The position numbers were made by a program, and so were the translations under genes. From positions 2,976,001 to 3,040,000 of the forward strand of contig NC_010681.1 of the NCBI RefSeq assembly GCF_000020125.1: a stretch of 64,000 nucleotides of DNA, written 5' to 3'. Within the stretch, counting starts at the first letter, position 1; each line of letters begins with the position of its first letter. Positions 39,431 to 48,215 of the stretch are shown piece by piece. The notes under the pieces are model-generated. The model had not been told where the DNA came from. It was given only the letters and a program-made list of their open reading frames with translations, and ran no database searches. Source of the stretch: Paraburkholderia phytofirmans PsJN (GTDB lineage Bacteria > Pseudomonadota > Gammaproteobacteria > Burkholderiales > Burkholderiaceae).

Positions 39431-39587
39431 GCAACGCCCCGCACTTCACGCAGAACTTTTGCCGCATCATCTCCGGCTGCCTCGTCGATGCACTAAAAGC
39501 GCGTGGCGACCCGCGGCTGTTGCCGTGATCCGAATTTTCAAGATGGGTTGCCAAGCAGCGGGCGGCCGGTGTATCGTGTGCGCTGCT

Positions 39588-39687
39588 AACGCGGGGGTCC
39601 TGCGTCGCACGGAGGTTGGAGGTCCGTGCCGCGTGGGTGAGAAATACCCTTTGAACCTGATCTGGATAATGCCAGCGCAGGGAAGCG
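39588..39687 (+). promoter_or_regulatory. TPP riboswitch (thi box) upstream of thiC
   Basis: The thi-box core is intact: GCGGGGGTCC at 39591, TGAGAAATACCCTTTGAACC (39638-39657), then CTGATCTGGATAATGCC and GCGCAGGGAAGC to 39686. The spacing to the thiC start (about 108 bp) allows control of translation or transcription. It senses thiamine pyrophosphate; thiC shut-off when TPP is bound is the known behaviour. Confidence 0.95.
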
Positions 39688-39785
39688 TACGGATTTCGCA
39701 CCCAAGCCTTATCGCCTCATCTCTCGCGAATTCCGACTACTTCCGTCTCGTCTCCTGCTTAGCCGCCCCACATAGCTCTGCATAG

Positions 39786-46238: not shown

Positions 46239-46274
46239 AAAAAAATAGCCCGCACTCCATGTCGGAGTGCGGGC
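46239..46274 (-). terminator. Factor-independent terminator of the intergenic RNA
   Basis: GCCCGCACTCC (46248-46258) pairs perfectly with GGAGTGCGGGC (46264-46274), an 11-bp stem. On the minus strand it is followed by TATTTTTTTGG, a seven-U run, so it stops minus-strand transcripts. No minus-strand gene precedes it other than the predicted RNA. Confidence 0.9.
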
Positions 46275-46452
46275 GAAACCGTCGCCCTACGAGGATAGGC
46301 GACGGGGCCACCGAGGCCGCGCGCCGCGCGCGCAGGCCGTCATCGGGCGAAACATCGGTTCGTCGGCCGATGCTGGAATGGTCTGGGATCGTTTTGGATC
46401 GTCGATCGGGAATCGCTGCCAACTCACGCCGGGTCATGCAATCCGGCCCCAT
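46241..46452 (-). ncRNA. Predicted sigma-54-dependent small RNA (~210 nt)
   Basis: A transcript starting about 12 nt beyond the sigma-54 promoter (near 46452) would end at the terminator near 46241. Besides the terminator stem it holds an 8-bp hairpin, CCGTCGCC with GGCGACGG (46279-46286 and 46298-46305), whose loop on the RNA reads TATCCTCGTAG. The TCCTC is complementary to Shine-Dalgarno sequences, as in target-pairing loops of many small RNAs. Further stems are likely. No family is recognised. Coding is unlikely: the longest frame from the start runs through the terminator, and a 46-codon GTG frame (46427-46287) has no ribosome site. Regulation via sigma-54, IHF and an activator is indicated by the upstream sites. 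Confidence 0.65.
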
Positions 46453-46463
46453 GAGTCTGTAAA

Positions 46464-46479
46464 AGCAGCTTATGTGCCA
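46464..46479 (-). promoter_or_regulatory. Sigma-54 (-24/-12) promoter
   Basis: On the minus strand TGGCACATAAGCTGCT matches the consensus TGGCACGNNNNTTGCW at 13 to 14 informative positions, with the obligatory GG and GC exactly 10 bp apart. It implies a start near 46453. Confidence 0.8.
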
Positions 46480-46509
46480 GTTTTTACATATCGTTAAAAA
46501 AACTAGCGG

Positions 46510-46522
46510 CAACCTTTTGATT
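46510..46522 (-). promoter_or_regulatory. IHF binding site
   Basis: On the minus strand AATCAAAAGGTTG is an exact match to WATCAANNNNTTR. It lies in an AT-rich stretch (46495-46540) between the sigma-54 promoter and the upstream palindrome, where IHF bends DNA at such promoters. Confidence 0.72.
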
Positions 46523-46582
46523 TTTATTGATTTTTTCTGCTGCCGGAGGTTGCGGAGAATGGTGTTCAGGAAGGCCTGGAAA

Positions 46583-46611
46583 GTTACGTCACCGGGGTAA
46601 CGTCACGTTAC
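46583..46611. promoter_or_regulatory. Upstream palindromic activator site
   Basis: GTAACGTCACGTTAC (46597-46611) is a perfect 7+1+7 palindrome. A further half-site GTTACGTCAC at 46583-46592 forms a GTTAC-N9-GTAAC pair with it. The centre lies about 125 bp upstream of the sigma-54 promoter, the usual distance for an enhancer-binding activator. Confidence 0.68.
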
Positions 46612-46648
46612 ATGAGGCCGCACGAAGCGGCCCCGCCGACGGGCCGGG

Positions 46649-46804
46649 TCACAGCGTTGGCCACTTCGTGCGCTGCGCCGTGCCATGCCGAAGCCGCAGG
46701 CCGGTTGGCCGCGGCGATTCGCGCGGGCTCAAGGCCGCGCCGCAGACCAGCGCCAGGACGAGCAAGCTCGCCGCCCACATCCAGTAAGGAATCACGTCGA
46801 ACAT
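46649..46804 (-). CDS. Small single-span membrane peptide
   Basis: A 51-residue frame: MFDVIPYWMWAASLLVLALVCGAAL, then a basic tail (SPRESPRPTGLRLRHGTAQRTKWPTL). One transmembrane helix is clear. GGGAG lies six bases before the ATG at 46804. It is unrecognised. It lies directly upstream (on the minus strand) of the palindromic site and the small RNA, and downstream of bamC. The signal and the hydrophobic helix make it more likely real than not. Confidence 0.55.
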   Translation of the reverse strand: MFDVIPYWMWAASLLVLALVCGAALSPRESPRPTGLRLRHGTAQRTKWPTL

Positions 46805-46916
46805 GGTCATCTCCCGTTGAACGCCGGATCGGGCCGGTATTTAGGGAACCAAGCAAAAGACGTGCGCATGCACCGGACGATCGCTTATCGGCAAGGTGTT
46901 GCCGGAATCTCAGGGC

Positions 46917-46985: not shown

Positions 46986-48215
46986 TCAGTGCAACTGGTC
47001 GGCCATCAGACTCATGATCTGTTTGGCCTGCGGGCTCTGGTCAATCGTACCCTTGTCGTCGACCACGGCCACGCGCGTCTGGTTAGGCGTCACCGCGCGC
47101 ACGTTCACCATGTACTGCTTGGCAACTTTTTCCTTCCTGCCGTGGAAAACCTGGCTCCAGAAGCCCTGTTCCGCCGATGTCATGTCCTTCGGATCGACAT
47201 AGCGCACGAAGTACAGGCCACGGGTCAGGTCGCGGTCGTCGACGGTGAAGTTGCTGCGGTCGAGCGCGAGGCCCACGCGCAACCAGGCGCGGTCGTACGG
47301 CTCGCCGAGCGTGAGTTCCGTCGACGACAGTTGGGCTTCGGTGCCGTTCGCGTCCGCAGCCGGCAAGGGTTGCTGGGCGGACAGCGAGACGTTTTGCGCC
47401 GCCGTGGCCGCAGCCGCCGATTTGGCGCCCGCAGTGGCCGCGTTCGGCGCCGTCTGCGCGCCGGCCGACAGGTCGGCGTTTTGCGCGTCAGCCGGTTTCG
47501 AGCGCGAATCGGCCAGTGCCAGCGCCGCCATCAGACGCTTCAGATATTCCTGCTCGAGGCCCGGATCGTTCGGCTTCGCCACCCACGTGCTCGAGTCGTT
47601 GTTCGTGCCGGTCAGCGCCTCACGCATGCCCTTCTGGCTGACGAACACGTACGTGCCGCCGTTCGGCGCCGCTTCCAGACGCGTGCGGTACTTGTTGCGT
47701 TCCGAGGTCACGTAGCTGTTGCCCATGGCCTTGGACAGCGTATTGCGGATCAGGCCTTCGTTGATCTGCGCGTGCGTTTCGTTCCAGTCGGTTTCCATCA
47801 CGCCCTTGTCGCGCTGGTCGACCACCAGCAGGAAGCCCTGTTCCTGCCAGAAGCGGCGAATCTGCGGCCATGCCTGCTCGGGCGCCTTGTTGTCGATGAC
47901 GAGCCAGCTTTCCGTGCCGTCGCGCTGGATATGCATGCCGTTGACCGCCGGCGCCACCACCACGGAATTGGCCGACGGCGCTTGCGCCTGAACCTGCTTG
48001 AGCGTGGACAACGAGGTTTCGCCGCCCTGCGGGGGCAACGAACGCTGATCGGCCGTCTCATCGATCATGTTCGGCGGTACGGCAAGTGACACCTGCTTCG
48101 ATTTCGAGTCGCTCTTGTAGTCGACTTTGGTCGGCGACGACGTGCCGCAGCCGGCGACCAGACCGCCTGCCATCAGCATTACTGCAAACCGCTTGGTAAG
48201 ACGAAGATCAGTCAT
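46986..48215 (-). CDS. bamC: Outer-membrane protein assembly factor BamC
   Basis: A 409-residue lipoprotein of the BAM complex. Signal MTDLRLTKRFAVMLMAGGLVAGC with Cys23 as lipid site. The unstructured segment that contacts BamD (YKSDSKSKQVSLAVPPNMIDETADQR) comes first, then two helix-grip domains (about 110-250 and 310-405; WLVIDNKAPEQAWPQIRRFWQEQGF and the later DRAWLRVGLALDRSNFTVDDRDL). An Ala/Asn-rich linker (about 260-300) separates them. It helps insert beta-barrel proteins. Usually dapA precedes bamC in Burkholderia; here no gene of that kind lies upstream within 450 bp. A strong terminator follows. Confidence 0.92.
   Translation of the reverse strand: MTDLRLTKRFAVMLMAGGLVAGCGTSSPTKVDYKSDSKSKQVSLAVPPNMIDETADQRSLPPQGGETSLSTLKQVQAQAPSANSVVVAPAVNGMHIQRDGTESWLVIDNKAPEQAWPQIRRFWQEQGFLLVVDQRDKGVMETDWNETHAQINEGLIRNTLSKAMGNSYVTSERNKYRTRLEAAPNGGTYVFVSQKGMREALTGTNNDSSTWVAKPNDPGLEQEYLKRLMAALALADSRSKPADAQNADLSAGAQTAPNAATAGAKSAAAATAAQNVSLSAQQPLPAADANGTEAQLSSTELTLGEPYDRAWLRVGLALDRSNFTVDDRDLTRGLYFVRYVDPKDMTSAEQGFWSQVFHGRKEKVAKQYMVNVRAVTPNQTRVAVVDDKGTIDQSPQAKQIMSLMADQLH

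Follow-up and report, generated by a model that had tools for sequence, protein, structure and literature searches.

Is the space between a bamC-like gene and a convergent EamA-type gene of Paraburkholderia phytofirmans PsJN occupied by a small RNA (sRNA) gene and, if so, which protein would switch it on, and on what would the RNA act? An earlier note on the window (the whole stretch of 64,000 nucleotides analysed here) had claimed that a sigma-54 promoter with an upstream activator site drives an RNA at this place. From the comparison of related genomes, we find it very likely that the locus is a real and conserved sRNA gene under sigma-54 control. We propose, as a reasonably probable reading overall, that it encodes a trans-acting sRNA, that the enhancer-binding protein GtrR activates its sigma-54 promoter through an array of GTNAC pentamers, and that the RNA operates by anti-Shine-Dalgarno action.

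The locus and its conserved RNA module

The predicted parts of the locus are collected in Table 1. The terminator consists of a 12-pair stem (46274-46248, minus strand) followed by TATTTTTTT, and the RNA folds better than its shuffled versions (z -2.87; 3 of 200 shuffles were equally good). The minus-strand open frames across the RNA are not credible genes, in agreement with the earlier note, because the leader varies freely in length and sequence between species, and the -24 element of locus L151 starts only 62 nt before H2.

Table 1. Predicted features of the locus, in window positions
Feature	Sequence or type	Position	Strand	Basis
First GTNAC block	GTAAC-GTGAC-GTTAC, GTAACGTGACGTTAC	46597..46611	-	sequence and genome comparison
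Second GTNAC block	GTGAC-GTAAC, GTGACGTAAC	46583..46592	-	sequence and comparison
IHF-like site	AATCAAAAGGTTG	46510..46522	-	sequence
Sigma-54 promoter (-24/-12)	TGGCACATAAGCTGCT, GG-N10-GC	46464..46479	-	sequence and comparison
Predicted sRNA	start to end of terminator T-run	46240..46453	-	start (about 46453) inferred from the -12 element
Hairpin H1	variable sequence, covarying pairs	46315..46338	-	covariance model
Hairpin H2	loop UAUCCUCGUA, anti-Shine-Dalgarno core UCCUC	46279..46305	-	covariance model
Intrinsic terminator	H3 and T-run, covarying stem	46240..46274	-	fold and covariance
bamC-like gene	conserved upstream neighbour	46986..48215	-	profile score and gene order

The bamC-like gene scores 27.2 bits against the BamC profile, far under the cut-off of 371. 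Among the matches listed, 107 of 120 loci have bamC on the same strand no more than 900 bp upstream; the remaining 13 have no bamC, but just 45-1011 nt of their upstream DNA was covered. The envelope link once proposed from this neighbour thus holds as a conserved gene order and goes no further; the link to a Tad/Flp pilus cluster and GtrR, described below, is better supported. Between bamC and the array lies a small membrane ORF (MTMFDVIPYWMW...; 46649-46810, minus strand), which could be a genuine gene for a conserved micro-protein, since a similar reading (MFDVVLYWMW...) is found at the matching place in L380.

When the region was searched by BLAST in 59 genomes, 24 of them (the PsJN genome included) had matches, the weakest being short GC-rich stretches. 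Searching named genomes for the exact H2 pattern returned at least 120 loci (L042-L161) in Burkholderia, Paraburkholderia, Caballeronia and Trinickia, among them that of Paraburkholderia xenovorans LB400 (L134); because these loci were chosen through that pattern, which the BLAST and covariance-model loci were not, the conservation inside it is partly by construction. In a covariance model of three hairpins and 42 sequences, double changes occur in 13 of 26 pairs, mostly in H1 and H3, and the H2 loop is near-invariant, as are the H2 stem and the preceding UGGCCCC, all partly owing to the choice of loci. Run on 299 genomes of the family, the model matched 134 at E <=1e-3, and the genomes scoring at least 81 bits (104 by hand count) all lie within the four genera. 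In other genera, where matches under about 40 bits were not counted as homologues, array-bearing homologues at L400 (63 bits), L403 (50 bits) and L401 (44 bits) retain the UCCUCGU loop core; L403 has no T-run after its final hairpin.

With bamC on one side and a convergent EamA-type gene on the other, the location would also suit a terminator shared by convergent genes next to a fortuitous promoter, with no sRNA gene at all. We regard this as highly improbable, given the conservation of the array, of the promoter and of H1/H2, the covariation, and the finding that, in Caballeronia and in L151, the promoter or the leader length differs while the RNA module stays the same. The unit described earlier stood up well to the comparison, its putative activator site, promoter, hairpin and terminator being conserved together across related species.

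Promoter and activator array

Sigma-54 promoters have the -24/-12 consensus TGGCACG-N4-TTGC, and TGGCACATAAGCTGCT comes near to it, as had been claimed. We scored array and promoter at those loci among the matches listed that have at least 330 nt of upstream DNA, the groups being set by hand from titles and site type. Both elements occur together at 81 of 81 loci outside Caballeronia (Burkholderia, 34/34; Paraburkholderia, 43/43; Trinickia, 4/4). As a conserved far-upstream activator site, the array starts at a distance of 102-145 bp from the -24 element (83 loci among the matches listed). For Caballeronia, the 33 loci comprise 6 with the array, 7 with the promoter, 2 with both and 22 with neither. 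Caballeronia loci such as L085, L121 and L053 retain the RNA module with a different upstream sequence, in which the array and the -24/-12 element were not found, and this suggests a promoter swap.

The activator site had been presented as a palindrome with an extra half-site, GTAACGTGACGTTAC being given in its plus-strand reading. These sequences are present, but they are better described as tandem GTNAC pentamers on the minus strand. Their arrangement varies, with GTAAC-GTGAC-GTTAC in most Paraburkholderia, GTGAC-GTTAC-GTAAC in most loci of the B. cepacia group and GTCAC-GTGAC-GTTAC in Trinickia, while L401, from another genus, carries six tandem GTNAC at the homologous place. Both GTAACGTNACGTTAC and the triple array GTNACGTNACGTNAC have a single zero-mismatch occurrence in the 8.2 Mb PsJN genome, where GTAACGTNACGTTAC at up to two mismatches is no commoner than its reversed control. 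Across 144 genomes of the genus, GTAACGTNACGTTAC occurs in 62 (once in 61 and twice in one), as compared with 4 for the reversed control. All 80 clusters of at least four GTNAC in 50 bp lie within the sRNA promoter (947 kb of L042-L161, among the matches listed). One genome (G088) has GTAACGTNACGTTAC unconnected with the RNA, and another (G065) retains the array with the RNA absent.

The IHF consensus is WATCAANNNNTTR, to which the site in Table 1 is an exact match. This part of the earlier note is correct for PsJN, but the near-consensus form (WATCA[AG]N4[CT]TR) is common only in Paraburkholderia (37/43 loci, as compared with 2/4 in Trinickia and 3/34 in Burkholderia, among the matches listed). 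The WATCA core of the site is found at 29 of the 34 listed Burkholderia loci.

GtrR as the candidate activator

The PsJN genome encodes 20 strong Sigma54_activat proteins, which we compared through best BLAST hits with the enhancer-binding proteins of B. cenocepacia (19), T. dabaoshanensis (16) and two promoter-less Caballeronia (20 and 14). Only one of the 20, encoded at C3:1878090-1879478, matches the presence or absence of the promoter in the four genomes, with 81-83% identity in B. cenocepacia and T. dabaoshanensis and best hits of 40% in the two Caballeronia. This protein has the Pfam domains Sigma54_activat and HTH_8 and scores far under the LuxO and GlrR cut-offs of NCBIfam; its gene is the last of a Tad/Flp pilus cluster, in which RcpC, secretin, TadZ and Tad domains are encoded, and has an Hfq gene nearby. 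In B. cenocepacia, the two gtrR primers of PMC8174753 match the start and the end of the orthologous ORF with 0 mismatches, and its length equals the 463 residues given there for GtrR, so that we identify the protein as GtrR (BCAL1536). According to the accessible parts of PMC12838280 and PMC9684580, GtrR partners RpfR in signalling by BDSF and c-di-GMP and is a global regulator that connects biofilm, motility and virulence with BDSF quorum sensing and c-di-GMP. Trinickia dabaoshanensis (G172) has a second GtrR-like protein (L265, C15:100002-101339), about 59-60% identical to that of PsJN.

A GTNAC array also stands upstream of the pilin gene flp in nine of nine Tad loci, which were selected for having gtrR. 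In an alignment of eight of these upstream regions, the array provides 20 of the 29 invariant columns and every adjacent run, the other 9 being scattered singles. Since the array is common to the sRNA promoter and to flp, before the Tad genes, GtrR is indicated as the switch of the RNA, which is probably a GtrR target and hence part of the Tad-pilus/BDSF regulon. The sole four-GTNAC cluster that we saw outside the sRNA and flp promoters is beside gtrR (L318:4172-4205, genome G184). Upstream of the Hfq gene near gtrR, GTAAC-N5-GTTAC or GTAAC-N5-GTAAC occurs in PsJN and B. cenocepacia (L289:10109-10123 and L290:7520-7534), possibly as another array-type site.

The RNA and gtrR co-occur. Among the 49 genomes behind the listed loci, gtrR is found in 20/20 of those outside Caballeronia with array and promoter, in 5/6 of the Caballeronia with the promoter, in 2/3 of the Caballeronia with the array only and in 5/20 of those with neither; both listed Caballeronia loci with the two elements (L052 and L072) come with gtrR. 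Of the 144 genus genomes, 68 have gtrR and the RNA, 9 the RNA only, 19 gtrR only and 48 neither (association assessed by a Fisher test that ignores kinship). Ten of the 11 genomes with gtrR and the RNA but without the palindrome were examined, and all ten have array and promoter.

In 7 of the 9 RNA-only genomes the array or promoter is lost or altered, two of these changes being slight. Four (G148, G161, G021 and G032) have lost both elements and have altered RNAs (61-86 bits); G137 retains the array with TGGCGG at -24; G160 has a broken middle array unit and TGGCGC at -24; and G094 retains the array and differs solely by TGGCGC. The array and promoter are intact in G157 (RNA of 62 bits) and G019 (10% contamination), which have no gtrR orthologue. 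Outside the genus, G232 has both the array and gtrR (76%), G265 has the array and a perfect promoter with no gtrR orthologue, G252 has a six-unit array and a mutated -24 with no orthologue, and G373, G293 and G313 have GtrR-like proteins (59-64%) with no array at their weak model matches.

Several observations weigh against GtrR. First, no conserved -24/-12 element was found upstream of flp in the nine Tad loci and the eight-genome alignment, so that the array there must act with another sigma factor, or else its binder is not GtrR. Second, the bclACB promoter, reportedly a published GtrR target, has no array in its 506-bp probe region in B. cenocepacia, only two isolated GTNAC. Third, G265, G157 and G019 keep array and promoter, and G252 its six-unit array, without a gtrR orthologue. 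Fourth, the 19 gtrR-only genomes have no RNA, and five Caballeronia behind the listed loci carry gtrR although both the array and the promoter are missing at their RNA. Fifth, the TGGCGC that sets G094 apart is found also in L158, which comes with gtrR and is the one carrier among the 89 promoters of L042-L161 (among the matches listed).

The flp and bclACB regions, together with G265, G157 and G019, would suit a sigma-54-driven sRNA activated by another GTNAC-recognising enhancer-binding protein, gtrR co-occurring through its position in the Tad cluster. Similar half-sites do occur with other activators, since CbrB of Pseudomonas has TGTTAC/GTAACA subsites according to the accessible part of PMC6296734. 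We nevertheless judge another activator unlikely: none of the other 19 enhancer-binding proteins of PsJN fits the pattern in the four genomes, although a ubiquitous protein would escape such a pattern, and the changes seen in seven RNA-only genomes speak for GtrR. Two activators considered for the likeness of their motifs were rejected, namely CbrB, because the CbrAB system is said to be confined to pseudomonads, and GcsR, whose consensus is different. We likewise discarded the idea that an enhancer-binding protein controls its own gene through the array: among 17 of the 20 PsJN genes, one (L205) has two close upstream GTNAC and 16 have none.

Mode of action of the RNA

Keeping GtrR as the favoured activator, we infer the following pathway. 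Sigma-54 RNA polymerase would transcribe the RNA from 46479-46464, and GtrR, whose gene closes the Tad/Flp cluster, would bind the array at 46583-46611, IHF aiding the looping in Paraburkholderia. The RNA, which may use Hfq, would have the double-hairpin module as its 3' end, and the UCCUC loop would pair with the Shine-Dalgarno regions of target mRNAs to repress translation. The Tad pilin mRNA would be one possible target.

That anti-Shine-Dalgarno pairing is the mode of action is plausible in view of the sRNAs that the RNA resembles. Over the whole window, only a TPP riboswitch (39583-39701, plus strand) and tRNA reach an Rfam gathering score, and no GlmY/GlmZ, Qrr or CrcZ family does, so that the RNA is indeed one that Rfam does not recognise. 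It scores 31.1 bits (E 1.2e-5) against anti-hemB (RF02837, gathering score 49.5) and 22.8 bits against the Betaproteobacteria toxic sRNA family (RF02278, gathering score 50). With RF02278 (ncS03, ncS05, ncS27 and ncS62) and anti-hemB (ncS04), it shares the last two hairpins in the same order, i.e. a UCCUC-loop stem, a U-rich linker and a GCCCG...CGGGC terminator; it differs from them by an extra 5' part, hairpin H1 and the predicted sigma-54 promoter. RpoN and sigma54 are absent from the main text of the paper on the double-hairpin sRNAs (PMC5688073). In the accessible parts of PMC5688073 and PMC11722255, an action on ribosome binding sites is predicted or reported for ncS03, ncS05, ncS27 and ncS62, with their CU-rich loops, and in PMC11722255 also for the 3' module of Bordetella S17. 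As predicted for the RNA studied here, S17 is a long transcript whose 3' module can pair with ribosome binding sites, but, as far as that source goes, it has a sigma-A promoter, sits between a glycosyltransferase gene and coq7, and represses a sigma-54 activator, whereas our RNA is proposed to be driven by one.

The near-invariance of the H2 stem and UGGCCCC, even if due in part to the choice of loci, goes beyond the needs of simple loop pairing, and no target stood out in our screen. Both points would fit an RNA under sigma-54 control whose main effect is protein titration, or in which H2 is a protein-binding or processing element; such a reading is compatible with either GtrR or another activator. 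We consider it fairly unlikely because of the CU-rich-loop sRNAs and S17, with their same order of elements, and of the sub-threshold match to anti-hemB.

Under the anti-Shine-Dalgarno action that we favour, flp mRNA is a weak lead only. CGAGG is present in 9/9 flp ribosome-binding regions versus 48/266 background starts, but the flp-sRNA duplex energies are no better than background and, in 8 of 9 cases, weaker than the background mean, which counts against the proposal. The idea that the 5' leader masks the 3' module was rejected, the complementary stretches that exist being no longer than in shuffles.

Relation to known sRNAs

Sequence comparison shows the conservation of the array, promoter, RNA structure and terminator, the sharing of the array with flp and the association with gtrR. 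The RNA does not appear, by extrapolated position, in Table 1 of PMC5688073 or Table 2 of PMC10987360, whose supplementary tables may list it. Within the accessible literature, we found no report of this RNA, of its sigma-54 control or of a GTNAC motif for GtrR. In B. cenocepacia, NcS25 is likewise a conserved Burkholderia sRNA with a regulatory role (PMC10117139, accessible part), but its authors found no sigma-54 motif upstream of it. Identity with ncS11 of B. cenocepacia, a minus-strand sRNA of similar length (208 nt), was rejected on position, assuming collinearity: ncS11 maps to 2.545 Mb, with ncS63/hemP some 3 kb away, whereas in strain NCTC13227 the hfq gene beside gtrR is separated from the RNA by about 51 kb, and the h2cR coordinates place hfq2 of J2315 at about 1.705 Mb. 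The RNA would thus be expected at about 1.756 Mb in J2315, on the minus strand.

LuxO-Qrr, GlrR-GlmY/GlmZ and CbrB-CrcZ are sRNAs driven by sigma-54 and an enhancer-binding protein. The predicted unit has the same make-up (enhancer-binding protein, far-upstream array, sigma-54 promoter and non-coding RNA), with a different RNA, as judged by Rfam gathering scores, and a different activator, as judged by NCBIfam. By analogy with LuxO-Qrr, we tentatively suggest, as a possibility that we hold to be doubtful, that the RNA is the sRNA arm of BDSF/c-di-GMP quorum sensing: RpfR-GtrR and sigma-54 would turn it on at high cell density, and it would retune Tad-pilus and other mRNAs. GtrR would then resemble FleQ in its dual mode of regulation, its GTNAC arrays serving together with sigma-54 at the sRNA promoter and together with a different sigma factor at flp.

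We propose the GTNAC array as a binding motif for GtrR, for which the accessible literature gave us no published one. The array offers a direct test of GtrR action, with or without sigma-54. If our proposal is true, the Tad pilus and a conserved sRNA would join the GtrR regulon, and an enhancer-binding-protein/sRNA pair of the LuxO-Qrr kind would be added in Burkholderiaceae.
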